A stretch of DNA of 42,817 bases, taken from positions 1-42,817 of IMG/VR virus record IMGVR_UViG_3300009417_000012, one strand, 5' to 3'. The notes beneath the pieces were generated by a model, which saw nothing but the letters and a program-made list of their open reading frames with translations, was not told where the DNA came from and ran no database searches. Positions 3,286-29,277 of the stretch are shown here, in pieces. Source of the stretch: a virus. The number at the start of each line of letters is the position of its first letter. The first letter of the stretch is position 1. Made by a program: the position numbers and the translations under genes.

Positions 3286-3288
3286 CAC

Positions 3289-9543: not shown

Positions 9544-9555
9544 GCTTGTTAGCTC

Positions 9556-10014: not shown

Positions 10015-10025
10015 GTCAGCTCCTG

Positions 10026-10157: not shown

Positions 10158-10159
10158 GG

Positions 10160-12253: not shown

Positions 12254-12351
12254 ATCGGTATTATTCCATTGTAGAAGGCAAGACCAAACCAGAAGGGCAC
12301 TGATACCCTGAGAGCTATCAGCGCCCCTTCCAACCACACGGCGGGACTCAT
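12250..12351 (-). CDS. Very small membrane protein (33 aa)
   Basis: A 33-residue frame starting MSPAVWLEGALIAL, with a hydrophobic, aromatic helix (VPFWFGLAFYNGIIPI) to its end. It is supported by exact ATGA overlaps on both sides: with the secreted Cys protein upstream and the 50-residue membrane protein downstream. Function is unknown. Together these three genes form a mini-cluster of envelope-directed products inside the replication operon. Confidence 0.5.
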   Translation of the reverse strand: MSPAVWLEGALIALRVSVPFWFGLAFYNGIIPI

Positions 12352-13599: not shown

Positions 13600-15633
13600 C
13601 TATTTGATGTCGCCATAGACGCGACCGAGTTTCGGCTTGCACACCAGCGGTGGCATGTCAGGCCAGTACGGACGATACGATTCCTCAAGGATGCGCTGGA
13701 TCTCAGGCAGGTACGCTTCGGCCTGAGCCTCGGGGAGCAGGCCCACCAGCTCATCGTATATGTTATGTGCTACCCGCACGCCCAGTTGTTTTTCAATCAG
13801 GAACTGAGCGTGCGTCATGATCTCGTTAGCCAGACTCTGCGCCAAGTTCTCCACGAGCAGCGCACCGTACACGTTGCTGCTCCAGCCCGGACCCCGGGAG
13901 GAGTAGGACAAACCTTCGGACGACAGGTGCAGGTCTCGATAGTTCATGCACGTACCGCTGGGCCAGCGGACCACAGCAACGCCTTGCTCATGAGAGTAGA
14001 AACCGATGAGTGTTTCCGTCGGCAGGTTCAGGTGCTGGCCCAGCGTCTCTCGGTCGATCGATCCACTGCGGGCGACCTGATTCAATAGCGCATCGCAGAA
14101 CCGCCACGCCGCAGGCAGCGCAGGGTGCTTGACCTTGCGGAAAGTGTCGACGATCCGCATCGCATCCATGTGGTCGATGCCCAGCGAGATGCCCAGCCGC
14201 TCTGCTCCTGTGCCGTACTGACAGGAGAGCTGCCCGATCTTGCCCATGAACCGCTGATCAAGATCGACCGTCGCAGGGTCAACACCAAACGCCTCAGCGT
14301 ACAGATCCACATACATGTCTCGGTCGTTGAGGATGTAGTCGATACCCGTCTGATCTCGCACCATCCATCGAGTGATGCGCAACTCAAACCCTGAGTAGTC
14401 CGCCGCGAAAAGAACGTACCCCGGAGGAGCCTCGATGCAATTGCGTACGATCCCCTTGCTGGGCCAGTTCAGGGGGTTGCCCCCTGACCCGTCACTGCCC
14501 GTCGGCCTGTGGGTGTGAGCCCCTGACGCCACGATATGCAGGGGGAACGCACCGCCCAGCGCCTTGGCAATTCGGGAGTATCGATAGTTACGCTTATCAC
14601 GGCTACCCGCTGACACTTCCCCCTTCAGGTCCATCATGCGCACCACATCAGGCGGTGTGTAGGGTGAGTTGTAGATCCGCTTCCACTCGGGGTGAGCCTT
14701 GCTGGCGAGCGCTATCTGTTTATCGGGGTCGCTCGGGCTCGGGATCGTGGGCCACCCGCCGGGGTAGATCGCATCCATGATCTCCTTGAACTTGGCAGAC
14801 GACCGAAGCTGACTCGCCTGTATACCCTGCGAGTCCATGTAGTCCTTCACCTCTTGGTCCTGCAGCTCCTGATGGTGGCGCAGCTTCTCGTGATCGAGCC
14901 GAAGCACGGGGTCACACATCTGGCGCAAGGCCCAGTCGATAAAGTACCGGCGGATAGCGGGGATCTTGCCGTCCATCTTCTCCCACACGGCCCGGAGTTT
15001 CTCCACGTCTTGGTAGGCGTAGACCAGATAGGCTTCGAGATCCGCCTGATCTAGGTCTTGAGGGTGCTTGCCCATGACACTGAACAGGCCACGCCGATCC
15101 TTGGCCTGCCGCTCCTCCTCGCCGTTGCCCAGTACGTACGTCTGGTAGCAATCCTCCAGTGACTGGCCGTGCATGTACCGCTTCGACCCTCGCGTTCGTG
15201 TATAAGCTGAGCCGTTCAGGTACTGGTCCATCATCATCGTGCACACGCACTGCCCCGGCACGAGCCCCGTGTGGTAGCGGATGTAGGAGAAGTCGAACGC
15301 TCCGTTGTGGGCGACCACGGGGCGATGCTCATACCCGCGTCCGACCAGAATTCTTTTGAGCTGCGCCGCGGGAGTCTCATCGAAGCTCCCCGGTGCAGCG
15401 GGCTGACGGGGTAGAAGCAAGGGGGTCACCCCCTCGCCCGGCATCAGCGGATCATCAAGGATCACACACTGCGGATGCGACAGGGGGTGCACGTTGTACT
15501 CCCACGTGCTCATGTTCTTCAGGCTGCACCCGTCATCGAAGTAGGTCTCGAGGTCGAGGAACAGCGGCGCGTTGCCATGCCCAGTGGGGTATGGGTTGAT
15601 GACTGCTCGGGGCGAACTAGCGGGGGTGTTCAC
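13600..15633 (-). CDS. Family A DNA polymerase with 3'-5' exonuclease domain
   Basis: A 677-residue replicative polymerase. The exonuclease domain has FLDLET (D27, E29), VVAHNGAFD (N110 to D114) and YAYQD (D209), a DEDDy set, so proofreading should be active. The polymerase domain has motif A ADYSGFELRI (D412), motif B RFMGKIGQLSCQYG (R461, K465, Y473) and motif C NIYDELV near residue 640, where Y replaces the usual H of the HDE triad. The start is GTG at 15633, overlapping the previous TGA (GTGA). It is the main polymerase of this phage and lies with nuclease, helicase and SSB-like genes in one operon. Confidence 0.95.
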   Translation of the reverse strand: MNTPASSPRAVINPYPTGHGNAPLFLDLETYFDDGCSLKNMSTWEYNVHPLSHPQCVILDDPLMPGEGVTPLLLPRQPAAPGSFDETPAAQLKRILVGRGYEHRPVVAHNGAFDFSYIRYHTGLVPGQCVCTMMMDQYLNGSAYTRTRGSKRYMHGQSLEDCYQTYVLGNGEEERQAKDRRGLFSVMGKHPQDLDQADLEAYLVYAYQDVEKLRAVWEKMDGKIPAIRRYFIDWALRQMCDPVLRLDHEKLRHHQELQDQEVKDYMDSQGIQASQLRSSAKFKEIMDAIYPGGWPTIPSPSDPDKQIALASKAHPEWKRIYNSPYTPPDVVRMMDLKGEVSAGSRDKRNYRYSRIAKALGGAFPLHIVASGAHTHRPTGSDGSGGNPLNWPSKGIVRNCIEAPPGYVLFAADYSGFELRITRWMVRDQTGIDYILNDRDMYVDLYAEAFGVDPATVDLDQRFMGKIGQLSCQYGTGAERLGISLGIDHMDAMRIVDTFRKVKHPALPAAWRFCDALLNQVARSGSIDRETLGQHLNLPTETLIGFYSHEQGVAVVRWPSGTCMNYRDLHLSSEGLSYSSRGPGWSSNVYGALLVENLAQSLANEIMTHAQFLIEKQLGVRVAHNIYDELVGLLPEAQAEAYLPEIQRILEESYRPYWPDMPPLVCKPKLGRVYGDIK

Positions 15634-15839
15634 GCCGTGTGTGTCCGGTGCTTGTCGCGGTGAATCTCTGCTTCCAAATCCCGCAGCTCCTTCTGCTTGC
15701 GCTTCATCTTTCTGCAGGCTGCACGGTACTTGTGCTCTGCTTCGTCTCGCTCAGTCTCGTAATAGCCAGCACGAATTCTCAGATTCTCAATAGCCTGTTC
15801 AAGGCCAGCAATTAGTTCCGCGTTTTCATCGGCGCCCAT
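15630..15839 (-). CDS. Small coiled-coil protein upstream of DNA polymerase
   Basis: A 69-residue, highly charged helical protein (ENLRIRAGYYETERDEAEHK, then KMKRKQKELRDLEAEI) that should form one long coiled coil. GACAGGAGCTGAGA precedes the ATG, and a GC hairpin lies about 10 bases further upstream in the leader. The stop overlaps the polymerase GTG, so translation of the polymerase is probably coupled to it. Function is unknown; a polymerase accessory or oligomerisation factor is possible. Confidence 0.8.
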   Translation of the reverse strand: MGADENAELIAGLEQAIENLRIRAGYYETERDEAEHKYRAACRKMKRKQKELRDLEAEIHRDKHRTHTA

Positions 15840-15841
15840 TC

Positions 15842-15900
15842 TCAGCTCCTGTCAGCGCCCCGCCCGGGATGGGCGGGGCTAGGTCTACCTACTCGCTGCC
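15842..15900 (-). repeat. Intergenic GC-hairpin repeat, copy 1
   Basis: A nearly 60-base element also found at 16226-16285. It holds a perfect 9-bp hairpin (GCCCCGCCC at 15857-15865, complement at 15871-15879), the shared ribosome-site sequence of the downstream gene and the end of the upstream gene (Gly-Ser-Glu-stop). There is no U-run, so it is not a normal intrinsic terminator. It sits where it could affect mRNA stability or translation. Confidence 0.8.
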
Positions 15901-17298: not shown

Positions 17299-18774
17299 TT
17301 AAAAATACTGCTCGTCTTTGCTGGCTGGTGCCGCTGGCGATGTCGCTACCGGCGTGAGCGGCGGCGCAGCCACGGCCGGAGCAGTAGGCAATGCGGCGGG
17401 CTGTACTTGCGGCGCAGGCGGCACCACAGGAGCCGTGACGCTCAGCTCCTCGGTGTCCACCGCGACCTGCTTGCCGAAGTTCACGGCGTGGCCTGCCGTC
17501 TTGGCAGCAAGCCGGGTGAAGGCCGCGACGAACCCCTGCATGAGGGCTGAGTACACCGCCGGGTCCATGTCCTTGATGCGGGAGCGGGACAGCTCCTTGC
17601 CCTGCACCCCGACCTGTGCCTGACGCCTGACGAGGTAGGCCACGATGCAGGATGCTGCCGTCTCTGGCATGCGCTTGACGTACGTGATGTACGCTGCCAC
17701 GTTGAGCGGCGTCAGAGCGGGCAACAACATGCGCACCTGCATCGACTGGTGCAGCGCCCCCTTGGGTGTGTCGGCACCCTCGGGATCGTTCTCGACCTGT
17801 TCCATCGTGGCGAACCGGTCGGCCAGCTCCATGGCGATGTACAGCTCATGCGCCACAGCCTTGGGTACCATGGCCTCGAGGATCTCCCGCTTGAAGGCCG
17901 GCGAGTACTCGCTGCCTTGGTGCCTGAGATCCATCATCTCGAGCGAGACCTCGTGCCACGTCGCCGGGTTCAGTCCGTTGACCACGGGGATGGCGGACCC
18001 GTAGTCCGGCTCCTTGTCGTCGTCATCGAGCACGTTCAGCCCCTCCACTCGGCCGTTGCTCGCCACGCCAGTCAGGCACACCAGCGAGGGGTGATCGTTC
18101 AGCACCTTCTCGACTTCCGGGGCGAGTACGCCCCGCTCCCCGAGGTACTCGACCACGTCCGGCGCTTCCGGTCGGATGCGGAACCACTTGCTGATCCGCC
18201 GAGCGAGGGGACCCGTCAGGAAGTTGCTCGCCGGCATGTCCTCGGGTCGGTTACCCATGGCGATGAACGAGATCCGCGACTTGTCGGCGTCACTGAACTG
18301 GTGGGTGCCGACGCCCTTGTAATCCATCAGTGCCAGCAGCACGGCTTGGAAGGGAGGGATACCCAGATTTATCTCATCGATCGCGATGACCAGATGCTTG
18401 GTCGGGTTGTCGATCAGGAGCTGCGTCGCCTCGTGGTACCAGATCGGCACGGCGTAGTCACAGGCTACCGTCGGACGCTGGCTGTAGGGGTCGACGTAGG
18501 TGTCGCCGGCAACCAGCGCACCCCGCACCGTGATCTCGTCGTACATGGCGCAGTTGAGGACGTTGACCATGACGCCATCGCAGCCATTGGGGTGGCCGGC
18601 AAGATCCTGTGCGGTGATGGTCGATGCGAGGTCGGTGACGGTCTGTGTCTTGCCAGCGCCACTCGGACCCATGATGCCGAAGCTCTGACCTCGGATGAAG
18701 GACCGGCGGATGTGCTCACGGAGTCGCGTGGTGCCGACTTCGGGAACGAACTGAACACTCATTTGATTGGACAT
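17299..18774 (-). CDS. MoxR/CobS-like AAA+ ATPase
   Basis: A 491-residue ATPase. Walker A GPSGAGKT lies at about residues 35-42, Walker B LVIAIDEIN about 95 residues later, and FIAMGNRPED is the sensor 1 region of MoxR-family proteins. CobS and MoxR ATPases work with a VWA-domain partner to remodel or load metal into target proteins; that partner is the gene at 20809-22560. The last 60 residues form a Pro/Ala/Val tail ending in an acidic-aromatic tip (SKDEQYF), like the tail of the SSB-like protein. The ATG at 18774 follows TTGAGAGC. A promoter about 110 bases upstream gives it separate expression from the small-gene array. Confidence 0.88.
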   Translation of the reverse strand: MSNQMSVQFVPEVGTTRLREHIRRSFIRGQSFGIMGPSGAGKTQTVTDLASTITAQDLAGHPNGCDGVMVNVLNCAMYDEITVRGALVAGDTYVDPYSQRPTVACDYAVPIWYHEATQLLIDNPTKHLVIAIDEINLGIPPFQAVLLALMDYKGVGTHQFSDADKSRISFIAMGNRPEDMPASNFLTGPLARRISKWFRIRPEAPDVVEYLGERGVLAPEVEKVLNDHPSLVCLTGVASNGRVEGLNVLDDDDKEPDYGSAIPVVNGLNPATWHEVSLEMMDLRHQGSEYSPAFKREILEAMVPKAVAHELYIAMELADRFATMEQVENDPEGADTPKGALHQSMQVRMLLPALTPLNVAAYITYVKRMPETAASCIVAYLVRRQAQVGVQGKELSRSRIKDMDPAVYSALMQGFVAAFTRLAAKTAGHAVNFGKQVAVDTEELSVTAPVVPPAPQVQPAALPTAPAVAAPPLTPVATSPAAPASKDEQYF

Positions 18775-18918: not shown

Positions 18919-19134
18919 TTACAGATTCTTGAAGTGGGGCGCTTTTATGTAGTCGAACATCGGAGGTTGGTTCCTTAGTTGGAGCCCAAGGGACTGCGTA
19001 CAATGGCGACATTTAATCCGCTGTGCGCCGTCGCGGTTTGCGCGCATGACGTCAAAGGAAGCTGTCGCCACGATCTCGTAGTCGGTACACCCGCAACAGG
19101 GCATGCTGGATTTGTACTTTAAAGTTTTTTTCAC
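18919..19134 (-). CDS. Array protein, zinc-type (71 aa), last of the array
   Basis: A basic start (MKKTLKYKSS) is followed by MPCCGC and then IKCRHC, and the tail is KAPHFKNL. The start is a GTG overlapping the preceding TGA; the ribosome site AAGGAGCACAGC is formed by the last codons of the upstream gene. It is the last array gene: its own end has lost the KEHS codons and no coupled gene follows, only the promoter of the ATPase gene. Confidence 0.8.
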   Translation of the reverse strand: MKKTLKYKSSMPCCGCTDYEIVATASFDVMRANRDGAQRIKCRHCTQSLGLQLRNQPPMFDYIKAPHFKNL

Positions 19135-19358
19135 GAGCTGTGCTCCTTGAATATAGGAGCCTGGATAACGGACACGCCGCCTATGTCGGCCGAATACCCG
19201 TGTTTATAGCCGCAGTTCTGGCATGTTAGGGAGTTCGATGAGAGCTGATTAGCATCGCGCCACTTCCCCCACCCTTGGATCAGGTTATTCAACGGGCTCA
19301 CCCCACAGCACGGCAAGGCCCGGCGCTTGGGTATGCGCGGCTTGGCAAAGATACTCAT
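19131..19358 (-). CDS. Array protein, zinc-type (75 aa)
   Basis: The sequence has ALPCCG, a 34-residue variable middle rich in Asn, Ser and Trp, then LTCQNCG, and ends QAPIFKEHSS. The first Cys pair is adjacent (CC) rather than CxxC, as in all four members of this sub-block. The terminal Lys-Glu-His-Ser codons contain the ribosome site of the next gene. Confidence 0.8.
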   Translation of the reverse strand: MSIFAKPRIPKRRALPCCGVSPLNNLIQGWGKWRDANQLSSNSLTCQNCGYKHGYSADIGGVSVIQAPIFKEHSS

Positions 19359-19588
19359 AAGCTGTGCTCCTTGAAGTTGGGCATGTGCAGCGGGGTTACG
19401 TAAGGCTGGGACCCTGCGTAATCACAGCTTAGGCGAGCGACATACTCCGTGTAGCAATATCTGCACTTGAGTATGTGCATAATGTCGAAGCTGTGCATGT
19501 CCTCGATCGTACGGTACTCGTAACAGTTATCGATGTAAGGGCAGAAGCAGCAGGGTGTGCGCACGTGCGTGTCGAGCTGCTTATTCAT
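19355..19588 (-). CDS. Array protein, zinc-type (77 aa)
   Basis: The start MNKQLDTHVRTPCC is chosen because the ATG overlaps the upstream TGA and follows AAGGAGCACAGCTC. It is the Cys-richest member of this sub-block, with PCCFC, DNC, LKCRYC and LSC. The tail is HMPNFKEHSL. The seven Cys could bind more than one metal ion or form disulfides; the minimal four-ligand site is PCC/C plus CRYC. Confidence 0.8.
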   Translation of the reverse strand: MNKQLDTHVRTPCCFCPYIDNCYEYRTIEDMHSFDIMHILKCRYCYTEYVARLSCDYAGSQPYVTPLHMPNFKEHSL

Positions 19589-19860
19589 GAGCTGTGCTCC
19601 TTGAAGACGGGGACTTGGGTGAACCTGAAAGCCGGCGGGTCGCCTCTGAGGTAGTGACACAGGTGGTCGCCGCACCCTTCACACCGGGCAAGCGCTAGTT
19701 GATAACACCCGCTGTCCGGCAAGTCGAACAACAGACGCGTAAGCAATAGTGTTTGACTATTCACACTGCCGCAGCACGGCATCATCAGATCGGTTGGCAA
19801 TTCTTTTCTCTTGCCGAACGCCCGGCGAATTCCAGAGAAAAGTTTTTTCGTTTTGCTCAC
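19585..19860 (-). CDS. Array protein, zinc-type (91 aa) with basic N-terminal extension
   Basis: I start at GTG 19860, overlapping the upstream TGA; an ATG at 19875 would add five residues. The N-terminus MSKTKKLFSG is basic and shares KTKKL with the two minimal genes before it, which suggests that starts are exchanged between units. The zinc pattern is MPCCG then ARCEGCG, and the tail is QVPVFKEHSS. Confidence 0.75.
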   Translation of the reverse strand: MSKTKKLFSGIRRAFGKRKELPTDLMMPCCGSVNSQTLLLTRLLFDLPDSGCYQLALARCEGCGDHLCHYLRGDPPAFRFTQVPVFKEHSS

Positions 19861-19964
19861 GCGAGCTTCAACCATATGAACCCGGGCATGCGAAGACGAA
19901 ACCCGTAGTCAAAAGGGGGTAGGTCCACATGCACGAAGAAGTACTTCAGCTTCTTGGTTTTCAT
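19857..19964 (-). CDS. Minimal array peptide (35 aa)
   Basis: It starts MKTKKLKYFFVHV and ends RMPGFIWLKLA. It has no Cys. Start and stop overlap both neighbours by 4 bases. The first six residues match the next gene upstream exactly (MKTKKL) and the DNA around the start is repeated there. Confidence 0.65.
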   Translation of the reverse strand: MKTKKLKYFFVHVDLPPFDYGFRLRMPGFIWLKLA

Positions 19965-20092
19965 AAGTCCCACCCACGTAGCAACCATATAAACATAGGT
20001 ATCCTCACGCACTTGTAGCTTGGCCGCGTGCCGGGGATCTGCCTGAGCTTGGGGAGAAACAACGGGTAGCGCTGGAGCTTCTTGGTTTTCAT
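19961..20092 (-). CDS. Minimal array peptide (43 aa)
   Basis: It starts MKTKKLQRYPLFLPK and ends VRIPMFIWLLRGWDL. It has a single Cys and no zinc pattern. It is supported by ATGA overlaps at both ends and by the P-x-F-x-W-L tail at the same distance from the end as its neighbours. It is a separate frame from the long open frame that crosses it. Confidence 0.65.
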   Translation of the reverse strand: MKTKKLQRYPLFLPKLRQIPGTRPSYKCVRIPMFIWLLRGWDL

Positions 20093-20208
20093 ATATCCAC
20101 CTCGTTTTCCAGCCATATAAATCGCGGCATGGTGAACCATATCGACACACCCCCGCTAGAGTAGCCACCGTAGCCGGTGAAGTCCCTGAAGTATTCGATC
20201 CTTCTCAT
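20089..20208 (-). CDS. Minimal array peptide (39 aa)
   Basis: It starts MRRIEYFRDFTGYGG, is rich in Gly, Tyr and Ser, and ends FTMPRFIWLENEVDI. It has no Cys. ATGA overlaps bound it on both sides. The tail is followed by five charged residues, as in the neighbours. Confidence 0.65.
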   Translation of the reverse strand: MRRIEYFRDFTGYGGYSSGGVSIWFTMPRFIWLENEVDI

Positions 20209-20342
20209 ACCCACACCACCCTCCTGTCCAGCCATAGGAAGCTGGGCATGGGGATCATGAACGTGTTTGCGTACAAGTCGCTCAGTATGTGTATGTCTTT
20301 CGGCAGGGAGTGCAGCTCGGCGTGCTTCAGAAGCCTAGCCAT
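20205..20342 (-). CDS. Minimal array peptide (45 aa)
   Basis: It starts MARLLKHAELHSLPKDIH and ends IPMPSFLWLDRRVVWV. It overlaps the upstream gene by 16 bases instead of 4; its ATG lies in the last codons of that gene (TTATGGC). A helix followed by the tail is likely. Confidence 0.65.
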   Translation of the reverse strand: MARLLKHAELHSLPKDIHILSDLYANTFMIPMPSFLWLDRRVVWV

Positions 20343-20449
20343 AAGAGGTAATCCCTGTCGTCCAGCCATGTGAATCGAGGTGCGAAAAAAGCACAACGCC
20401 CCTGATCAAAGACCCTCTGTACGAAGTAGTGCCGTAGCTCCTTGTTCAT
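20327..20449 (-). CDS. Minimal array peptide (40 aa)
   Basis: It starts MNKELRHYFVQRVFDQG and ends with FFAPRFTWLDDRDYLLWLGF. Its first five residues, MNKEL, are the same as those of the zinc-type gene at 22785-23030. One Cys is present. The ATG overlaps the upstream TGA. It is too short to stand alone as evidence; context and tail support it. Confidence 0.65.
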   Translation of the reverse strand: MNKELRHYFVQRVFDQGRCAFFAPRFTWLDDRDYLLWLGF

Positions 20450-20604
20450 GAGAACAGCGCCTTTCGTATGCGCTCGGACTTGAACACGGGGAAGTAAACG
20501 AGGATGCGCTTGGGCTTGTGCACAGGGGTTCCAGTGAGAATGCCGAACCGGTCGCTCGGAGTAAAGGATACTGCCACGCTAAAAGTTCCAAGGAATCTAT
20601 TCAT
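20446..20604 (-). CDS. Minimal array peptide (52 aa)
   Basis: It starts MNRFLGTFSVAVSFTPSDRF and ends YFPVFKSERIRKALFS. It keeps P-x-F-K but lacks the W-L that follows in the other minimal genes, so it is intermediate. It has no Cys. ATGA overlaps bound it on both sides; the junction GTGCAATGA before it recurs at the next gene upstream. Confidence 0.65.
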   Translation of the reverse strand: MNRFLGTFSVAVSFTPSDRFGILTGTPVHKPKRILVYFPVFKSERIRKALFS

Positions 20605-20714
20605 TGCACCGGTTCCCCGATCAACCACTTGAAGTCCGGCATGAGAACCATGTCGAAGTAGCAGGGAGTAGCGCAGTGGATGCTGAGTACCCGACGATTG
20701 AGATGCTTGATCAT
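20601..20714 (-). CDS. Minimal array peptide (37 aa)
   Basis: It starts MIKHLNRRVLS, has one HCATPC pair that could be a remnant of a zinc site, and ends VLMPDFKWLIGEPVQ. It shares P-D-F-K-W-L with the gene just upstream, so the two may be recent duplicates at the tail. ATGA overlaps at both ends. Confidence 0.65.
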   Translation of the reverse strand: MIKHLNRRVLSIHCATPCYFDMVLMPDFKWLIGEPVQ

Positions 20715-20812
20715 TGCACTAACCTCAATGACAGCCACTTGAAGTCCGGACCGATCACGGCTCCCCAAAAATCGGGGTGGTACCACGTCCGGACGGCGAG
20801 AACCCGGCTCAC
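20711..20812 (-). CDS. Minimal array peptide (33 aa), overlapping the VWA gene end
   Basis: The start is a GTG in GTGA, sharing 3 bases with the VWA stop codon. The peptide has P-D-F twice: YHPDFWGA in the middle and IGPDFKWL near the end. It is the shortest member and the first gene after the VWA gene, so its translation should follow that of the VWA protein directly. Confidence 0.65.
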   Translation of the reverse strand: MSRVLAVRTWYHPDFWGAVIGPDFKWLSLRLVQ

Positions 20813-22560
20813 TTGATCTTCAGGTGCGTGGCCGGCACCCCCGTCGCTGTTGCATAGCTCCCTGACGTCACCGCCCGGGCCACCGTCTCGGAGCAGTTGT
20901 TCTCGGGCGATACCCACACCACCCGCTGAGGATTGATGTCACGGATCAGTCGGGGGTTCGGTACCTGCACATAGCAGTCGGTACCGATAATCAGCGTCCC
21001 CGCACCATCAAGCTTGGGAATCTCACCGACGTCCATCCGGCGACGCATCTCCTGCAGCGGCTTGTCGAGAGACGTGCCCCCGCCACCCCCCATGTCGAAC
21101 ACGTGGCCCGTGGCGTTGTTCTGGTCCACCACGAGCGTCGGGTAGGTGTCGGTGTCGAACGGGACGATGGCAAGCGAGCTGCCCCCGGCGCCGGTCACGA
21201 TCGTGGTCAGGGCGTAGATCAGCTCGCCGATGCCACCCCCTGCCCAGACCATGCTCCCTGACACATCGAGGAGCGCCGCACACTCGACCTGCGGAGCGTA
21301 GCGGGAGGGAAGATACACCCGACTGAGGGCAGGCTCCGCCCGGCAGCGTCGGAGGCTCGAGCGATCGCCGGCACCGGCCGTGACGGCGAGCATCGACTCG
21401 CTGAGTACCTGCCGCCAGTCGACCTCACGCTGAGTGCGAGCAACACGATGCTTCAGGTCGAGCACGCCCGCCTCCATGCCGGCGCACTGGCTGGCGGTGC
21501 TGGCGAGGTTCGTGTCGATCATCGCTTCAGCGTTGGCCTTCGCGTCGGCCCGCTCCTGTGCACTCTCCGGCTGGTGCGTCGCATCCGACTGGCCGCCGGG
21601 CTCGGACACCCCCGACACAAGGTGACCCTCACCGCCGTCGCTGTTGTCCGTGTCGGGCAGGCTGTCACCCGCACCCTCTTCACCATCACCACCCTCGCCG
21701 TCTTGGGGCTCCTCGTGGGTGAGGTGCTCGGCAAGGTAGTTGAACACGCGAGCGCAGCCGACCGCCTTGGTCATGGTGTCAGGCTCATCAAGGTCCGAGA
21801 GGAACCGGACCACGTCCTGCCGGGTACCGTCGTCGAGCTGCAGCTGAGCAAGCGTGCTCGCCAGTGCACCGGCAGCAAACCGGGCATGACAGCGAAAGAA
21901 GTCTGCATGCAGGGGCGCCACGTTCCGGGAGGTCTCGGCCAGCGATCGATCGTGGATGGCGTCGAGCACAAGATTCGCCAAGAACCGGGCGAACTTCGCC
22001 ACCTTGGGCTGATCGTTCCGGAACAGCGTCGGGAATCCATACTCAATGAGAAGATCCCCGTCAGCGTAGTGCTTCGCCTCGTGGATAGCGATGCTCCTGA
22101 AGCGCTTGTATCGGTCCGTGAAGTCGTTGTCGTCCCGCGCCTCATTACGCCTGCCGATGCACCACAATACAAGATCCGGGTGGTACACCATCGTATCGGC
22201 AGACACGCCCATGGTCCTGACCGGGTGAGGCGAGAAGACACTCGCGGGGTCCCGGAACATGGCGAGCGTGAACTCAGGTGTTGCCACACTGAGCTGGGAC
22301 AGCAAGATAGAACAGGCAAGCACGTCGTCTACGCTGGAGGCCATGCCCTCACCCAAGAGATTCTGCAGCGCGTCGTGTGCCTCGGTGCAGCGGCGAGCGA
22401 ACAGGGGAGAGTATAGGTACTTGGGGTGCACACTCACACCGGGGACGTTGGCGTGCGCCTCTTCGCATTCACGGGGTGGGTCGATGACGGCATCGAGGGT
22501 CGTTGCACCCTCGGGCAAGTACGCTTCGTCGGGCAAGGGTAGATTGTTGAGATCGATCAT
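20809..22560 (-). CDS. CobT-like VWA-domain protein
   Basis: A 583-residue protein. The N-terminal half is helical with HEAKHYADGD near the middle, a metallopeptidase-like HExxH variant (HEAKH) seen in VWA-associated phage and bacterial proteins. An acidic, Gly-rich linker (EEPQDGEGGDGEEGAGDS) is typical of CobT. The C-terminal third is a VWA domain whose MIDAS starts with LLDVSGSM (D432) and continues with GGGGGTSL and IIGTDCYV. The partner ATPase is at 17299-18774. CobT-like proteins bind CobS-type hexamers and present targets. AGGAGCTGAACAAC precedes the ATG. It splits the small-gene array into two blocks, and the first tail peptide overlaps its stop. Confidence 0.85.
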   Translation of the reverse strand: MIDLNNLPLPDEAYLPEGATTLDAVIDPPRECEEAHANVPGVSVHPKYLYSPLFARRCTEAHDALQNLLGEGMASSVDDVLACSILLSQLSVATPEFTLAMFRDPASVFSPHPVRTMGVSADTMVYHPDLVLWCIGRRNEARDDNDFTDRYKRFRSIAIHEAKHYADGDLLIEYGFPTLFRNDQPKVAKFARFLANLVLDAIHDRSLAETSRNVAPLHADFFRCHARFAAGALASTLAQLQLDDGTRQDVVRFLSDLDEPDTMTKAVGCARVFNYLAEHLTHEEPQDGEGGDGEEGAGDSLPDTDNSDGGEGHLVSGVSEPGGQSDATHQPESAQERADAKANAEAMIDTNLASTASQCAGMEAGVLDLKHRVARTQREVDWRQVLSESMLAVTAGAGDRSSLRRCRAEPALSRVYLPSRYAPQVECAALLDVSGSMVWAGGGIGELIYALTTIVTGAGGSSLAIVPFDTDTYPTLVVDQNNATGHVFDMGGGGGTSLDKPLQEMRRRMDVGEIPKLDGAGTLIIGTDCYVQVPNPRLIRDINPQRVVWVSPENNCSETVARAVTSGSYATATGVPATHLKIK

Positions 22561-22572
22561 GTTGTTCAGCTC

Positions 22573-22788
22573 CTAAGTGTAGAGGTGGGGGAAGTAGGGT
22601 GTGGTTATGGGGTGGTCCAGCTCCTCGGCTTCCGTGGGGTACCTTTGGCCCCTACTGTGGTCACAGCGTGAGTAGTGGTAGCTTTCCCAGTAGATTTGGT
22701 TAAGCAGCGCTCTTCGAGAACCCTCGCCGGGAGCAGGGTAGCTCGCCATGCAATGACCGCACCGGGGAATAACCTTCAGGGTTTTCAT
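22573..22788 (-). CDS. Array protein, zinc-type (71 aa), just upstream of the VWA gene
   Basis: The start MKTLKVIPRCGHC is set by ATGA overlap at 22788. The second metal pair is SRCDHS. The tail TTPYFPHLYT lacks the basic end of other members and its stop is followed by the ribosome site of the VWA gene, 12 bases before that ATG. Confidence 0.8.
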   Translation of the reverse strand: MKTLKVIPRCGHCMASYPAPGEGSRRALLNQIYWESYHYSRCDHSRGQRYPTEAEELDHPITTPYFPHLYT

Positions 22789-23030
22789 TCCGGTTCTCCG
22801 TATACGTGTACGAACCAAGGCGTAGGAACGGGGTGGGCGAGGTGCTGCGCGAAACTGACTACCCCATGATGCCGGGGATGTCTATGTTCACATCTCAGGT
22901 ATTTTCCATGCTCCTCAGGAGTACGCCTTACCAAACGTCTCCAGCGCTCATCATCAGTCTCTTCGTATCTGTCTCTGTGTGCCGCCGTGCAAGCACCACA
23001 CCGGACGACGACACGCAGCTCCTTATTCAT
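22785..23030 (-). CDS. Array protein, zinc-type (81 aa)
   Basis: MNKELRVVVRCGAC opens it; YLRCEHRHPRHH gives the second site with several His. The end is HPVPTPWFVHVYGEPE, almost the tail of the two genes at 23247 and 23471, and the DNA there is the third copy of a shared repeat. It overlaps the upstream gene by 8 bases. Confidence 0.82.
   Translation of the reverse strand: MNKELRVVVRCGACTAAHRDRYEETDDERWRRLVRRTPEEHGKYLRCEHRHPRHHGVVSFAQHLAHPVPTPWFVHVYGEPE
22809..22845 (-). repeat. Tail-coding repeat, copy 3 (most diverged)
   Basis: Encodes the Pro-Thr-Pro-Trp-Phe tail of the gene at 22785-23030. It shares the block CCAAGGCGTAGGAACGGGGT with the copies at 23248 and 23472. Confidence 0.75.
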
Positions 23031-23250
23031 CGCCCTGCTCTATCAAGTGGGCGAGCAGCGGGGCGCGGATCTCCAAGTTGGCGCCGTGAATCATCGGATC
23101 GAAACAGTGGCACCGTCTCCACAGCTCCAGCTCGAGCTGCAAGTTCTGCGTAGGAGGCGCATAGGCTCCTGCGATGGGAGCGTACGCGCCCGCCGCACCA
23201 CAGCGCCTGCAGCGGGGGAAAGACTCGAGTGTTCTCGTGGTTGGTTTCAT
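23023..23250 (-). CDS. Array protein, zinc-type (75 aa) with altered tail
   Basis: The start is MKPTTRTLESFPRCRRCG, chosen for the ATGA overlap after GGAGCACAGTC. The middle carries an internal repeat (GAYAPIAGAYAPP). The second site is RRCHCFD. The tail is IRAPLLAHLIEQGDE: Leu replaces the conserved Phe, so this member tests whether the Phe is essential. Confidence 0.8.
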   Translation of the reverse strand: MKPTTRTLESFPRCRRCGAAGAYAPIAGAYAPPTQNLQLELELWRRCHCFDPMIHGANLEIRAPLLAHLIEQGDE

Positions 23251-23474
23251 GACTGTGCTCCATACAGGTACGCAAACCAAGGCGTAGGAACGGGGTGGCT
23301 GAGATCCTCGGAGTGATAGGGGCCTCGCCTGCCCTGTCGAGAATGTGAACACTGGTCGTATCGGTATGCTTCTTTCCGGTTCTCGTCCAAATACGTACCG
23401 AGCGGGTAAAAACCGTCTTCTTTTTGGTACAACGCGGTGCACTCACCGCAGCGAGTGATGATCGTGATCTTCAT
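23247..23474 (-). CDS. Array protein, zinc-type (75 aa)
   Basis: The sequence MKITIITRCGECTALY is close to the gene upstream (TLTIITRCGECGALF). The second site is YDQCSHS. The tail HPVPTPWFAYLYGAQS is identical to that of the upstream gene, and the tail DNA is nearly identical too, so this pair is a recent duplication or gene conversion. Confidence 0.83.
   Translation of the reverse strand: MKITIITRCGECTALYQKEDGFYPLGTYLDENRKEAYRYDQCSHSRQGRRGPYHSEDLSHPVPTPWFAYLYGAQS
23248..23302 (-). repeat. Tail-coding repeat, copy 2
   Basis: About 50 bases nearly identical to 23472-23526. Both encode the last residues of a zinc-type protein, the ribosome site GGAGCACAGTC and the ATG of the next gene. Confidence 0.85.
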
Positions 23475-23719
23475 GACTGTGCTCCGTATAGGTACGCAAA
23501 CCAAGGCGTAGGAACGGGGTGGGCGAGGTCGGAGGCGACGTAAGTTATACGCCGGGTGCCGTGAGCGTCCCGCAAACCGTGCTGGCAATCTTGGAATCGC
23601 TTTCTTTCTAGCGGGAAGGCGTCCCACAAATCGAGAACAGCCCGGGAGTGCCCCGAACCGTCAAACAATGCCCCGCACTCACCGCAGCGCGTGATGATCG
23701 TGAGTGTTTTCTTTCTCAT
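23471..23719 (-). CDS. Array protein, zinc-type (82 aa)
   Basis: The start MRKKTLTIITRCGECG is set by ATGA at 23719; the longer open frame upstream is ignored because it runs through another gene. The second site is FQDCQHG. It ends HPVPTPWFAYLYGAQS. It is the likely parent or sister of the next gene downstream. Confidence 0.83.
   Translation of the reverse strand: MRKKTLTIITRCGECGALFDGSGHSRAVLDLWDAFPLERKRFQDCQHGLRDAHGTRRITYVASDLAHPVPTPWFAYLYGAQS
23472..23526 (-). repeat. Tail-coding repeat, copy 1
   Basis: First copy in transcription order of the repeat at 23248-23302. It differs at a few bases before the ribosome site and at its far end. Confidence 0.85.
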
Positions 23720-23928
23720 ATATCCTCCCGCTGGGGTAAGTGGTGGAACCGCGGCGCGTCGACACCGCGAAACAGGGCTTCGTTGTGCTGGCACTTGTCG
23801 GCGTACTTCAGCTCGTTTCGAGTCTGTGTTGATAACCCCGGCTTACCGCGCAGGCCGTGCATGGCGAGACCGATCAAGGCGGCAGCGCCACACACGGGAC
23901 AGCGGAGGCGGGAGGCAAGGGCTTTCAT
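23716..23928 (-). CDS. Array protein, zinc-type (70 aa)
   Basis: MKALASRLRCPVCGAAALIG opens it; the second site is DKCQHN. The tail is VDAPRFHHLPQREDI. The stop is in ATATGAG, which also starts the next gene. The middle is rich in Gly and Leu. Confidence 0.8.
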   Translation of the reverse strand: MKALASRLRCPVCGAAALIGLAMHGLRGKPGLSTQTRNELKYADKCQHNEALFRGVDAPRFHHLPQREDI

Positions 23929-24134
23929 GGGGTGTTCTCGAGAAGGTGTCGGAACACAGGCGCCGGCATGTTTCGAAGCGAACGTACGCACCGCAAGAAG
24001 AGGCGCGACTCCGTGACAGCCACCGGATTCGCTCGATCCACCTCACTCATCAGGAGCGGGTCGACGTTGGCGAGCGCCCCGCACACCCGACAGCGCCGCC
24101 GGATCGCCACGCGGCGAGCCCGGCAGATGTCCAT
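23925..24134 (-). CDS. Array protein, zinc-type (69 aa)
   Basis: A GTG at 24140 overlaps the DUF3310 TGA, and an ATG two codons on at 24134 has better spacing from AAGGAG; I use the ATG. The N-terminus is very basic (CRARRVAIRRRCRVCG). The second site has one clear Cys (LRCVRS). The tail is MPAPVFRHLLENTP. Confidence 0.77.
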   Translation of the reverse strand: MDICRARRVAIRRRCRVCGALANVDPLLMSEVDRANPVAVTESRLFLRCVRSLRNMPAPVFRHLLENTP

Positions 24135-24136
24135 AG

Positions 24137-24376
24137 TCACTCCGCTCCTTCCCGTTCCCGGCGGGCGATCTCACGATCGACATACCAGCGGGCCTTGCGA
24201 AGGTCTTCCAGCGTCTTGCCCTTGTGGTCCGCCCGCCACAGGTACTTGATGGCGTTGCCGATATTGAAGGGCATGTGCTCTATCACGTCGATGCACTCGA
24301 TACCCGAGCCGTTGGCGTTGTAGTGCGGCGGGTGGTCGACCGTCTCGGGTGGGTTTGGTTTGTATTCCATACTCAT
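24137..24376 (-). CDS. DUF3310 protein
   Basis: A 79-residue protein with the full DUF3310 pattern: HPPHYN, then ECIDVIEHM, NAIKYLWRADHKG and DLRKARWYVDREI. The family is common in phages, sometimes labelled nucleotide kinase, but its function is unproven. It is the only array insert with no Cys pair and no P-x-F tail. ATGA and GTGA overlaps tie it to both neighbours, so it was inserted without breaking the coupling chain. Confidence 0.92.
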   Translation of the reverse strand: MSMEYKPNPPETVDHPPHYNANGSGIECIDVIEHMPFNIGNAIKYLWRADHKGKTLEDLRKARWYVDREIARREREGAE

Positions 24377-24597
24377 TGGTTTCTCCAGCTGTCGTATCGA
24401 AATTCAGGCGCGTGGATCTGTGCTCCTCCCTGACGGAAATGCTCGCACTTAACGATCGGCCGCCGGATCGTGTGGACAGGCGGACCGCCGTTGTCGGGGA
24501 CGTGTGTGCTCCTGAGCGGCGGGACAAACTCCCCGCACACACTACAGCAGACGCGAGAGGTCAGCCGCGTGAACGGCTGACCCACCCGAACGATCAC
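24373..24597 (-). CDS. Array protein, zinc-type (74 aa)
   Basis: The start is GTG at 24597, overlapping the stop of the fused gene. The sequence has SRVCCSVCGEF, then VKCEHFRQGG, and the tail is IHAPEFRYDSWRNQ. The middle is Pro- and Arg-rich. Confidence 0.8.
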   Translation of the reverse strand: MIVRVGQPFTRLTSRVCCSVCGEFVPPLRSTHVPDNGGPPVHTIRRPIVKCEHFRQGGAQIHAPEFRYDSWRNQ

Positions 24598-25379
24598 TGC
24601 TCCACACTGCCTGCCGCTGACGCACGCTCGGCAGAGAGAGCCAGACCGCGATTCATCAGGTCTTGGAAGTACGCGTCGTCGGCGGCGACCCCCTCGATCA
24701 GCTCGAGAGCGGCCTCGTGGTTGATAGCCGCAATGAAATACTGCTGCATCTTCTCTTTCTCGTCTCTCGGATAGTCGTTGTCCATCGTGGCGTACATGGC
24801 CTCGAGCACGCTCTCAGGCAGGCCGACTTCTGTCAAAGCCAACAGGTTCACGTGCTCGAACGCAGCGCACTGGGGCGAGAAGTCAAAGGTCGTCGGGGGG
24901 GATTTCAGGAGATCCATCACGTCGAGCTTCGCGATCAGGTTCTCGAACACAGCCGGGGTGATGAACTGTGCCGCATACTGGCGCTGCACCCCCTCGTTAT
25001 CCGTGTAGTTCTCGTAGTTAAGCGGGTAGGTTGTGTCCGGGTGGTATCCCGTCGCCGGCTGGTCGGCCGGGTGGATAGCGGGAAGGATGCGCGTGGTGGG
25101 TGTTGTTGCAGTCATGGTTTTTCTCTCTGGTGGGTGGGACGGGTGGAGGGTCGTGCGTTTGAACTCAGGTACGGGGGTCAAGGCATGATCGATGATGAAC
25201 TGCTCGAGGGTCGCGCCGCGTTTGCTGCATCTGAAGTAGTTCGGGCAGTCTTCACAGCCGCCGACGATACCGATGGTGCGGGTACGGTCCAGGTAGCCGT
25301 TAGAGTACAGGTATTTTATCGTACAATTCAGGCTCCAGCAGTTAGTGCACAGCACAGTCTGGTAGTCCGGGCGGTTCAT
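24594..25379 (-). CDS. Array protein fused in frame to an unknown 170-residue domain
   Basis: A 261-residue product. The first 80 residues are a normal zinc-type unit: CTNC, GGCEDC, and the tail ALTPVPEFKRT. There is no stop after the tail. The frame continues through a Pro/His linker into an acidic helical domain (from MTATTPTTRILPAI) that I do not recognise. An ATG at 25115 with AGAGAG upstream could also start a separate 173-residue protein, so both a fusion and a short form may be made. The start at 25379 overlaps the upstream stop after AAGGAGCACAGGTC. Confidence 0.75.
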   Translation of the reverse strand: MNRPDYQTVLCTNCWSLNCTIKYLYSNGYLDRTRTIGIVGGCEDCPNYFRCSKRGATLEQFIIDHALTPVPEFKRTTLHPSHPPERKTMTATTPTTRILPAIHPADQPATGYHPDTTYPLNYENYTDNEGVQRQYAAQFITPAVFENLIAKLDVMDLLKSPPTTFDFSPQCAAFEHVNLLALTEVGLPESVLEAMYATMDNDYPRDEKEKMQQYFIAAINHEAALELIEGVAADDAYFQDLMNRGLALSAERASAAGSVEQ

Positions 25380-25594
25380 GACCTGTGCTCCTTGAAAGGG
25401 GGCTTGCACGCGGCAGGCTCCCAGTTCCACTCTCGCCAGTGGAACCGGCACATGTAGCACATCTTTCGGCTGTAGCGCGCTCGATCGATCCCTCCTCGAT
25501 AGGCATGCATAGCCCTCTGAAGGGCCGACCCGTAGTCGTCCGCGCCGCAGTTCGGGCAGCAGGGTATGGCGTCAAGGGTTTTATGGGTCTCCAT
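25376..25594 (-). CDS. Array protein, zinc-type (72 aa)
   Basis: METHKTLDAIPCCPNCG opens it, with CYMCRFHW as second site and tail AACKPPFKEHRS. It shows the CC/CxxC start and KEH end of the sub-block at 18919-19860 although it lies in the other block, so sub-blocks exchanged parts or share a parent. It overlaps the upstream gene by 14 bases after GAGGAGCTGCG. Confidence 0.83.
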   Translation of the reverse strand: METHKTLDAIPCCPNCGADDYGSALQRAMHAYRGGIDRARYSRKMCYMCRFHWREWNWEPAACKPPFKEHRS

Positions 25595-25880
25595 CGCGCA
25601 GCTCCTCGGGTATGTAGTACTCGAACAGGGGAGAGTTGATCAAGGTGTAAGGCGCACAGCTCGCTTGACAGAACAGCTTGCCGGGCTGTCCTGTAAATAC
25701 GTGCTCGTATGAGTCGACGTTCTCCCAGACAGTCTCCCAGTTCTCGGCAAATTGATCTGGCTCTGTTGGGAAGGGCCCATCCACAGGCAAGGCCAGTCGT
25801 TTGTGGCGTGTGAGCAGGCGCGACGGGCGGCCGCACTTGTGGCAGCGGGTGATGACTTGTATGGGCTCGGTCTTGTTCAT
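25581..25880 (-). CDS. Array protein, zinc-type (99 aa)
   Basis: The longest unfused member. MNKTEPIQVITRCHKCG starts it; the middle is about 55 residues; the second site is LFCQASC. The tail is NSPLFEYYIPEELRDGDP. The last codons supply the ribosome site of the next gene. TAATG joins it to the upstream gene. Confidence 0.83.
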   Translation of the reverse strand: MNKTEPIQVITRCHKCGRPSRLLTRHKRLALPVDGPFPTEPDQFAENWETVWENVDSYEHVFTGQPGKLFCQASCAPYTLINSPLFEYYIPEELRDGDP

Positions 25881-26116
25881 TATCTACTCCAAGGAACAGC
25901 GGGCGCGGCGATCCAGCGCTGTTGGTAAGTGACGCCGTGGCGGTCAAGATCGTCGAAGTTGACGCCATACTCGAGCTCGGACACGCAGTGGTCCATGCAA
26001 TGAATCACGGCGGCGTTCTCCTCGTGAGCCGTAGCTGGTCTATCCAGCTCCGCCGAGTTGTACAGCGCCCCACAATACAGGCATCGTTTGCTCTTGGTAA
26101 GTTCATGCTCTTTCAT
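25880..26116 (-). CDS. Array protein, zinc-type (78 aa)
   Basis: The start MKEHELTKSKRCLYCG is set by ATGA at 26116. The second site is IHCMDHC. The tail is WIAAPAVPWSR, in which Phe is lost but Pro and an aromatic remain. It is the weakest match to the tail rule among the zinc-type genes. Confidence 0.78.
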   Translation of the reverse strand: MKEHELTKSKRCLYCGALYNSAELDRPATAHEENAAVIHCMDHCVSELEYGVNFDDLDRHGVTYQQRWIAAPAVPWSR

Positions 26117-26334
26117 GGTGTCACTCTCACGTCCGGATACTTGTTTTGGTAGGCAAGCACGGGCGTTTTTATGGTTTTCTGATGGGTCCAGTGGTGGGCC
26201 TGCATGCACTGCTGATGGGCGCGATGCTCCTCCCGGTTCTCATTGGATGGCAGGGCGTTGTATATGTAATAATAGCTGCACGCCCCGCACGCACCGCAGC
26301 GCACGACGGTCTCGAGTCGTTTATGTTTTGGCAT
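26113..26334 (-). CDS. Array protein, zinc-type (73 aa)
   Basis: MPKHKRLETVVRCGACGAC opens it; QQCMQAHHWTH is a Cys/His second site. The tail is IKTPVLAYQNKYPDVRVTP, with Leu-Ala in place of x-Phe. It overlaps the upstream gene by 14 bases. Confidence 0.8.
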   Translation of the reverse strand: MPKHKRLETVVRCGACGACSYYYIYNALPSNENREEHRAHQQCMQAHHWTHQKTIKTPVLAYQNKYPDVRVTP

Positions 26335-26551
26335 GGCGATACCTGAAGGCCGGGGCGTAATGGAAACTCTCGTGGCACTGCTCCTCGCAGATATCGAACA
26401 GGCGCAGCTCCTCTGTTTTCTCTTTCTCCTCGCCGGGCGCGTCTCTGAGATGCCATAGGGCGCCGCACCCCTGACAACGCTCAGCCGTGTCAAGGAGTAT
26501 CGCTCGCCTGCGTCGAGCGTGTAGGTTAGACAGGATCTCTTCACTCTTCAT
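26321..26551 (-). CDS. Array protein, zinc-type (76 aa)
   Basis: A 22-residue basic N-terminus (MKSEEILSNLHARRRRAIL) precedes ERCQGCG; the second site is DICEEQCH. The tail is YAPAFRYRHAKT. AAGGAGCAGCACGCC lies inside the end of the upstream gene and precedes the ATG. Confidence 0.82.
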   Translation of the reverse strand: MKSEEILSNLHARRRRAILLDTAERCQGCGALWHLRDAPGEEKEKTEELRLFDICEEQCHESFHYAPAFRYRHAKT

Positions 26552-26798
26552 GGCGTGCTGCTCCTTGGGGTGGGCGCCGGTGTGAGAGCTGGTAGCGAAA
26601 GAAGGGCGTGATGAGGTTCACGCTGCTGAGCCAGTGCTTCGAGGTGCGGCAGGTGTGATGCAAGCGCCGCTCCTCTGCCGACTCCCGGGAGCTGGCAGAG
26701 GAGGATGTGTTTCTGCTCTTGTAGACATAACTGCGTGCTCCGCAGATGGAGCAGCGAAGCACGCAGGGCACGGTGTGGCGGTCAGGGTCCAGCGCCAT
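26541..26798 (-). CDS. Array protein, zinc-type (85 aa), first gene of the array
   Basis: The start MALDPDRHTVPCVLRC follows CGGAGCAATCACG and is about 40 bases from the promoter at 26840. The first site is RCSICG, the second HHTCRTSKHW. The Ser-rich middle is low complexity. The tail ITPFFRYQLSHRR is followed by 11 extra residues that overlap the next gene. Confidence 0.8.
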   Translation of the reverse strand: MALDPDRHTVPCVLRCSICGARSYVYKSRNTSSSASSRESAEERRLHHTCRTSKHWLSSVNLITPFFRYQLSHRRPPQGAARHEE

Positions 26799-26839: not shown

Positions 26840-26868
26840 AATATACATGTACTGTCTGGGTGTCACAA
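26840..26868 (-). promoter_or_regulatory. Sigma70-like promoter of the small-gene array
   Basis: On the minus strand TTGTGA (26863-26868) and TATATT (26840-26845) are separated by 17 bases; the -10 matches consensus at five of six positions. It lies between a strong terminator and the first array gene, so the array begins a new transcript here. Confidence 0.65.
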
Positions 26869-26878
26869 AATGAAGGCC

Positions 26879-26906
26879 AAAAAAATCCCGGCCACAAGGG
26901 CCGGGA
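26879..26906 (-). terminator. Intrinsic terminator after the 177-aa gene
   Basis: On the minus strand CCCGGCC and GGCCGGG form a perfect 7-bp stem (26899-26905 with 26887-26893) with a 5-base loop, followed by A and seven T (26879-26885). This is a textbook Rho-independent terminator. It isolates the array from the gene upstream. Confidence 0.92.
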
Positions 26907-27475: not shown

Positions 27476-29007
27476 GGTGTGTTGTGCTCCTGTGAGGTAG
27501 GTGAAACGAGTAAACCTTTCCGGTTGGCAAGAATTACTGAGGTTTCGTACTTCAGCTGTACGCTGAGCAAACAAGCCTGTTTACGGTCGAAAACCGCACA
27601 AACCTGTTTGGTAAGCGCTCAGAAGGAGCTTCGATCTAAGGGTGATGGACGGCGCTAGACTATGGCCGACACCGGGGCGGTTGAGAAAGTCGCTTAGGGG
27701 AGCTTAAAACCGTGCTCCTTGGGGTGTTTCGGCGGCTGGGGGTGGGAACAGAGTCGATTAGGGGCTTGGAAGGGGCGCGGATTTGCTGTTCCTAGCCGTT
27801 TTACTGGCGAAGCATACAGTGATTAAAAACGTTACAGAATTGGGATTGTAAATACCTCAACCAACTCAAAGACTTAGGTGCTTTTTAGGGGGTCTTGTAA
27901 CGTTTTCGAATGGGGGTTGTTGCGCTTTTTGAGGCCAAAAGAGCGGTTATTTTGGCGAAACGTCACGCTTTTTTCGATTTGTAACGCTCCGAAATTCGCG
28001 TAAAGTTTTGATAAGCAAAACAAAACAAAGAAAACATACCTGTACTACTACTACAATTTATTAGATAAGAGAGAGAGTAGTAGTGCTGAGAATTTGCAGG
28101 TTTTCTAGGCTGAATTTGGCTGTAACAAAATGGCAAATAAACGTACGTTTTTCGCTAAAAAAGTACTTTTCTCCAATAGCTATGGATGTTTTGGCGTTAC
28201 AGCTTTTGATGTTGTATTATTTCAGGGAAAAATCGCTGGGAGCCGCGTTCTGCCTATATGGCTATTGAGGTGTCGTAAGTGTATGCGTCCGATTCTGTAA
28301 CGTTTTGGACGAGAACGTACGTCACATATCGCAAAAACCGCTGCAAGTTGTTGAATCTTGCGTTAAATTTGGAATTTGGAAAAATTGAAAACCCATACAA
28401 TTCCTCAAAAAGCGCTCGTTTTGGACTTCTGGAGGTACGTCATATAGGCCTGATTCGGCTAAGCTCCTTGCTGTGACGCGACGCAAAATTGCCTGACCCC
28501 CGCGACCCAATTTTGTTACATTTTGGAGTATATGACGTACGTTATGACCCAACTTTATCTGAACTACGTTAATCCGCCTAAAAAGTTCGGATTCGTACTG
28601 CATATATCTTCCCTCAAACAGTAAGGAACGGCACGCCCATACCACCAGACGTACCGCTCCTCAGTTGTCACGTTAGTTACGTTACCTGTAGGTGCTGCGC
28701 GACCCGAAAAGAGAGTGCTAGACCCCTTGCTCCGTAGGGTTATTAGCGTGTTTGTACACACTTATTAACACTTGCCGGCTATCAAACAGGCAGGAGCGGA
28801 CGCCACGCTGGTAACGTGCGTCGTGCTGGGGGATCGATTCGCTGTGAAGCTACTCGACCCTATATAGGCGCGTGTCTCGCCATCTATCCTGCTGCTGTAC
28901 CGCGATGCGCTCACGGGATACGAACCCGGCCACCATCGTGGTGCTAGCTGCCCCGGCCTACAGTCAGGGACTTGGCGTTACGTACAGATTCGGGCGTTAG
29001 CCTTTAC

Positions 29008-29058
29008 CTGTCAGGAGCGGGGTCAACCACAATACAAGGTTGACCCCGCTCCTGACAG
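29008..29058. repeat. Perfect 21-bp inverted repeat with 9-base loop
   Basis: The left arm 29008-29028 (begins CTGTCAGGAGCGGGG) and right arm 29038-29058 are exact complements around ACAATACAA. Folded RNA would be very stable on either strand. No U-run follows, so it is not a standard terminator. The right arm contains CAAGGTTGACCCC, which is related to the repeats at 30146-30231. Confidence 0.95.
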
Positions 29059-29059
29059 A

Positions 29060-29082
29060 TACCCCGGGCCGATCCCGGGGTA
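29060..29082. repeat. Perfect 9-bp inverted repeat
   Basis: TACCCCGGG (29060-29068) and CCCGGGGTA (29074-29082) surround a 5-base loop. It begins one base after the 21-bp inverted repeat and lies just past the stop of the 60-residue gene, so the two hairpins form a tandem pair at that transcript's end. Confidence 0.9.
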
Positions 29083-29094
29083 CCGTACTACCGA

Positions 29095-29277
29095 CTACTT
29101 ACTAAGCTGTGCTCCTAGCTCCGGGGTCGTGCTGCCCGTGAGCTTCGCCATGCGCTTGCTGGCCGATCTGGCCTGCCGACTCGGCAGGAGCCGCGTGGCG
29201 GGCTTGGCGCGGTCTCGGTTAGGGTTACCGGCTTTCTTGCCGTGACGGGACGTAGGAACGGCGCTGTAGACAATCAT
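29095..29277 (-). CDS. Small basic protein (60 aa)
   Basis: A 60-residue, Arg/Lys/Ser-rich protein (MIVYSAVPTSRHGKKAGNPN...) with no Cys or membrane segment. The ATG overlaps the upstream TGA (ATGA), which is the main evidence that it is a gene. Its last codons contain TAGGAGCACAGCTTAG, a ribosome-site sequence like those in the array, but no start codon follows. A nucleic-acid-binding role is possible from the charge only. Confidence 0.6.
   Translation of the reverse strand: MIVYSAVPTSRHGKKAGNPNRDRAKPATRLLPSRQARSASKRMAKLTGSTTPELGAQLSK

Follow-up and report, generated by a model that had tools for sequence, protein, structure and literature searches.

Bacillus phage G carries a lineage-specific expansion of zinc-ribbon proteins in about 35 copies (e.g., gp32, YP_009015343.1), and these are proposed to bind nucleic acids, as gene-specific transcription factors or DNA-packing proteins (PMC7824862). 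Here, we describe an array of the same kind in the IMG/VR virus record IMGVR_UViG_3300009417_000012, analysed over its full 42,817 nucleotides (nt; hereafter the window). The array comprises 27 small genes on the minus strand at 18919-26798, which encode proteins of 15-99 amino acids (aa), one of them (m07) fused to a larger protein. All share a C-terminal tail with a Pro, which in 24 forms P-x-F, and most also have a zinc ribbon. About 14% of this 43-kb phage record is taken up by this one self-duplicating family without a match in public libraries.

A profile made from five phage G zinc-ribbon copies recovers 36 in that genome (NC_023719), most of them in a single run at 352.9-371.0 kb. The 31 open reading frames read at 352500-371500 are arranged end to end, and nearly all have a common WKENDRYLAK-type C-terminal tail, (Y/L)WKENDRYLAK, which stops a few residues short of the stop codon; the available text of PMC7824862 mentions the expansion without this tail. 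Both phages have dozens of paralogous zinc-ribbon genes, mostly packed end to end, with a variable middle and one common C-terminal tail. They differ in the tail itself, which is P-x-F-x-W-L in the window, in the length of the genes in the main phage G array (~180-220 aa), and in the block of tail-only genes, of which none was seen in the parts of phage G read. Homology between the two arrays is not detectable, including for gp32: only the Cys positions align (hhalign probability 3.5%), and the window array profile retrieves nothing from phage G at E 10. The window array is a sequence-unrelated variant of the phage G kind of array in a medium-sized phage, and in view of the published expansion the statement in the preliminary description of this DNA, that its author knew of no phage locus like this one, does not hold as a claim of novelty. 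That phage G shows this plan in proteins of unrelated sequence is an argument for selection on the plan itself.

The count and coordinates given in the preliminary description were exact, and its picture of stop-on-start genes running in one direction stands: 20 of the 29 operon junctions are 4-nt overlaps, all on the minus strand. From upstream to downstream, the members are:

26541-26798, minus strand: m01, 85 aa, ribbon (CSIC ... HTC..H), tail TPFFRYQL.
26321-26551, minus strand: m02, 76 aa, ribbon, tail APAFRYR.
26113-26334, minus strand: m03, 73 aa, ribbon, weakened tail TPVLAYQ.
25880-26116, minus strand: m04, 78 aa, ribbon, weakened tail APAVPW.
25581-25880, minus strand: m05, 99 aa, ribbon, tail SPLFEYY.
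25376-25594, minus strand: m06, 72 aa, ribbon, tail KPPFKEH.
24594-25379, minus strand: m07, 261 aa, ribbon unit, tail VPEFKR, read-through into a further domain of ~180 aa.
24373-24597, minus strand: m08, 74 aa, ribbon, tail APEFRYD.
23925-24140, minus strand: m09, 71 aa, ribbon, tail APVFRHL.
23716-23928, minus strand: m10, 70 aa, CCCH ribbon, tail APRFHHL.
23471-23719, minus strand: m11, 82 aa, CCCH ribbon, tail TPWFAYL.
23247-23474, minus strand: m12, 75 aa, CCCH ribbon, tail TPWFAYL; structure modelled.
23023-23250, minus strand: m13, 75 aa, ribbon, weakened tail APLLAHL.
22785-23030, minus strand: m14, 81 aa, CCCH ribbon, tail TPWFVHV.
22573-22788, minus strand: m15, 71 aa, CCCH ribbon, tail TPYFPHL.
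20711-20758, minus strand: m16, tail-only minigene of 15 aa, MIGPDFKWLSLRLVQ.
20601-20714, minus strand: m17, 37 aa, tail-only, MPDFKWL.
20446-20604, minus strand: m18, 52 aa, tail-only, FPVFKSE.
20327-20449, minus strand: m19, 40 aa, tail-only, APRFTWL.
20205-20342, minus strand: m20, 45 aa, tail-only, MPSFLWL.
20089-20208, minus strand: m21, 39 aa, tail-only, MPRFIWL.
19961-20092, minus strand: m22, 43 aa, tail-only, IPMFIWL.
19857-19964, minus strand: m23, 35 aa, tail-only, MPGFIWL.
19585-19860, minus strand: m24, 91 aa, CCG-type ribbon, tail VPVFKEH.
19355-19588, minus strand: m25, 77 aa, ribbon, tail MPNFKEH.
19131-19358, minus strand: m26, 75 aa, CCG-type ribbon, tail APIFKEH.
18919-19134, minus strand: m27, 71 aa, ribbon, tail APHFKNL.

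Members with a ribbon follow one plan: they open with a strand, often K-x-L, after which come a first zinc knuckle that mostly reads RCxxCGA, a region of variable sequence, a further knuckle of CxxC or CxH and finally the tail. In an alignment of 11 members, an Arg that precedes the first Cys and a Glu on the N-terminal side of the second knuckle hardly vary, and the C..CG pattern is present in 13 small proteins as compared to 0.11 expected. The common plan proposed in the preliminary description holds for the tail, with the Pro in all 27 members and Phe two residues later in 24 (Leu in two, Val in one), but not for the zinc ribbon (CxxC ... CxxC or CxH), which is found in only 19 of the 27. 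The eight consecutive members m16-m23, of 15-52 aa, are without it and have little but the tail left. In 23 of 26 members, P-x-F occurs within the last 22 residues, whereas 5000 shuffles gave 1.8 such members on average and never more than 7; the distance from the motif to the protein end is not fixed but spans 6-21 residues. An aromatic residue or His (W, Y or H) stands two residues after the tail Phe position in 20 of the 27, and P-x-F-x-W-L ends seven of the eight tail-only genes. The tails of m03 (TPVLAY), m04 (APAVPW) and m13 (APLLAH) are weakened. In m07, an internal ATG at ~25116 could begin a separate gene; the extra domain of this protein (window 24594-25116) has no Pfam match above cut-off.

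Leave-one-out profiles, scored against shuffles that keep all Cys and P-x-F marks, support common descent: 16 of the 19 members with a ribbon score above at least 297 of 300 such shuffles. The exceptions are m07, m25 and m08, for which 158, 44 and 9 of 300 shuffles, respectively, scored as well, so that the kinship of these three rests on the marks and on position; none of the tail-only members was individually linked to the ribbon profile. Neighbouring members are more similar than distant ones (mean z 4.8 versus 1.1, a level that none of 5000 permutations reached), and repeated DNA segments of 46-61 nt run across gene junctions, which points to tandem duplication with fast divergence, partly via ribbon loss. 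These sequence comparisons show that the array members share ancestry and arose via tandem duplication, in line with the repeated duplication and divergence first suggested for the locus. The two ribbon types may have split deeply or not: hhalign aligned just one Cys knuckle between the CCG-type and the main ribbon set, yet in the leave-one-out test m24, m26 and m27 succeed.

Among the six frames, the called one looks most like coding sequence in 24 of 27 members (binomial p ~4e-16), with seven of the eight tail-only genes among them, and 73% of operon starts have a Shine-Dalgarno match of at least 4 nt ahead of them as compared to 26% of random positions. Of the tail Pro codon, the first two positions are invariant and the third is free (CCC/CCT/CCG), the Phe codon is TTC or TTT, and the residue between them varies at all three codon positions. 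Given this synonymous variation, it is the protein motif that is conserved and not a DNA element. These patterns, which bear on translation indirectly, indicate that the members are translated and under selection and that the tail is selected at the amino-acid level.

An AlphaFold2 (AF2) model of m12 from 11 rows reached a mean predicted local distance difference test score (pLDDT) of 75 and a predicted template modelling score of 0.64. It has a strand at residues 5-9, two helices in the variable part, a strand at 61-65 and a short helix at 68-71, with the tail held by the last two elements; the two strands are inferred to be paired in the model. Foldseek with this model gave no match at E <= 0.001 in PDB or the viral library, and the model of m27 was too poor for use (pLDDT 58.8).

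Save for a second assembly of the same phage, no relative of the array was detected in the family libraries, structures, phage records, viral contigs and species genomes searched. That assembly, another IMG/VR contig, has the same locus with one mismatch, so the array is not an assembly artefact. Matches to Pfam, PHROGs, NCBIfam, PADLOC and PDB sequences were weak and scattered, one per member and none convincing. Single-query searches with VWA, TerL or m11 recovered only the same phage, and so did an alignment of m11, m12, m14 and m15 in viral contigs, with nothing in species genomes. Short-conserved-peptide scans of 80 TerL relatives (30-35% identity) and 19 SNF2 relatives, which distant arrays could escape, showed no such array, and profile A1, with 18 members recovered from the window, had no match in 40 of the TerL-relative records. 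With m11, m03 and m26, tblastn against GenBank phages reached E 0.6 or worse. The m11 match in Stenotrophomonas phage CM2 lies antisense to an annotated gene. A search with the FKEHS DNA pattern gave one contig, a chance match. Members of the Lar restriction-alleviation family (PF14354) resemble the array members as small zinc-ribbon proteins of phages in which the Cys form two pairs, but the window has no match to the Lar model even at E 10. The FtsZ C-terminal peptide has the consensus [I/V]-P-x-F-[L/I]-R; mimicry of it was rejected, as Arg follows two residues after Phe in only one of the 27 members (m07), against W, Y or H in 20.

The array is broken by two non-members, and its surroundings comprise the following features:

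26886-26906, minus strand: strong terminator-like hairpin with a T7 run, directly upstream of the array.
26840-26868, minus strand: promoter-like TTGTGA-N17-TATATT, ~40 bases upstream of the m01 start, a consensus match only and not above shuffle expectation.
24137-24376, minus strand: DUF3310 gene (PF11753, E 8e-17), non-member within the array.
20809-22560, minus strand: VWA protein, distant relative of N4 gp25, non-member within the array.
17299-18774, minus strand: MoxR-like AAA+ ATPase, distant relative of N4 gp24, first gene past the array.

Read along the minus strand, the order is hairpin (26906-26886), promoter-like site (26868-26840), m01-m08, DUF3310, m09-m15, VWA, m16-m27 and MoxR. 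Overlaps of 1-16 nt are present at 26 of the 29 junctions, and the remaining three are gaps, one each ahead of VWA, m16 and MoxR. Elsewhere in the window, a long stretch at 27580-29250, in which plausible genes are scarce and GTAACG/ACGTTAC words recur, is possibly an origin or control region. A 717-aa protein at 38881-41034, in the structural gene region, has repeat units of ~33 aa (FDP.TC.L.G.GPDG...FDIG.A...KL), and a near-terminal tandem direct repeat of ~83 bases (~90% identical) lies at 42622-42704 and 42712-42794.

We favour, at a probability of roughly 0.4, the proposal that the constant tail serves one common partner and the diverged ribbons serve different targets, as a repertoire of modulators in host takeover. 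The locus would be a tandemly amplified tiny-protein family made from a single translationally coupled operon, in which a full member would combine a strand at the N-terminus, a zinc ribbon whose middle varies and the constant C-terminal peptide [A/T/M]-P-x-F-x-[W/Y/H]-L. This peptide would touch a single partner, which may be another member or a hub of phage or host origin, the ribbons would touch differing targets, and the array would be deployed while the host is taken over. The tail-only minigenes would be members that no longer have a ribbon and from which the constant part is still made. The strongest reason for this proposal is that the tail outlasts the ribbon and that an unrelated phage has the same plan. 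Two points weigh against it. Part of the tail lies in the C-terminal strand 61-65 of the m12 model, so it may belong to the fold and not be a docking peptide, and the family is present in one lineage only, which precludes an orthologue comparison of selection. An anti-defence or host-takeover role of the array is possible; no member convincingly matched a known defence or anti-defence family in Pfam, NCBIfam, PHROGs or PADLOC, the last of which covers defence models and not anti-defence ones.

In the main rival reading, the members would be zinc ribbons that bind nucleic acids, as gene-specific transcription factors or DNA-packing proteins, and the P-x-F tail would be a strand that closes the fold and not a docking motif. 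We consider this possible but doubtful. It has been proposed for the phage G expansion (PMC7824862), it agrees with the strand predicted for m12 residues 61-65, and some tail-only members have basic N-termini, e.g., MKTKKL. However, member net charge is not uniformly basic but ranges from -4 to +9, as expected of differing targets and not of one common nucleic-acid role. Eight members have lost the ribbon and kept the tail, and no known DNA-binding ribbon family or fold was matched in the libraries, PDB or Foldseek.

Binding to the MoxR-VWA chaperone pair is attractive by position, with VWA inside the array and MoxR directly after it, but weakly supported. The members would then be clients or interchangeable adaptors of the pair and the constant tail a handle for the VWA/AAA+ machine. 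Different one-motif sets of tiny proteins accompany the same pair in other phages. The nearest syntenic phage found, Rhizobium phage RHph_TM3_14A (MN988472; MoxR, VWA, PolA, RecB-like, VRR-NUC, SNF2), has ~11 tiny proteins without Pfam or PHROG family that share A..M(L/M)(L/M)G..Y and D..T.EP segments (8651-13144, 20760-21053 and 24508-24726), and its IMG/VR relative 3300020045_008024 has at least eight with the same segments. Acinetobacter phage Presley has 9-10 small proteins with a C-terminal A(R/K).NLLG(I/L) (1773-4680, 6314-6838 and 15568-15867); this motif resembles the N-terminal one of the TM3_14A set. Both phages, with about ten each, are like the window in having small diverged proteins with one short common motif in the slot upstream of a MoxR-VWA pair, and unlike it in the motif (A..MLLG or A..NLLG, N-terminal in TM3_14A and C-terminal in Presley) and in having no zinc ribbon. 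Our array is one of several motif-sharing tiny-protein sets observed. A VWA homologue (E 2e-57) is present in phage G as well, although ~53 kb from its zinc-ribbon array. The motifs differ from phage to phage, and an array of this sort is missing from six further phages that have the pair, so the pair does not require one. Moreover, TM3_14A and Presley were found via early-region genes or the pair itself, which biases the co-occurrence. We regard a role as clients or adaptors of this pair as unlikely.

Less likely again is near-neutral tandem duplication, in which a drift-prone array is kept since each gene must translate into the next and the tail-only block represents decay. Extreme divergence of the members, ribbon loss in m16-m23 and the weakened tails of m03, m04 and m13 would fit such a history, but coding-frame codon bias is still present in the tail-only block and the shortened genes hold the tail most strictly. 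Last, an origin of the tail as the side effect of a DNA element that recurs at gene ends, such as a ribosome or recombination site, is highly improbable and largely refuted by the tail's codon pattern: FKEHS tails do include AAGGAG, the ribosome site of the next gene, and the repeats are centred on junctions, but most tails are without the embedded site, third positions at P and F are free, the x codon is fully variable and the distance to the end is not fixed.

A further reading is that of an array of interchangeable adaptors for the MoxR-VWA machine, whose ribbons would grip differing host or phage targets and whose P-x-F-x-W-L tail would present them to a VWA hub. This reading is speculative, and we regard it as unlikely. 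If true, it would amount to a programmable remodelling system for the phage, with other lineages having the same plan with other motifs (MLLG, WKENDRYLAK). Together with that of the 500-kb phage G, the array points to a recurrent, little-described strategy of placing one constant tail on many variable mini-proteins, and, since the common tails are short peptides, the identity of the tail partner is open to direct test.

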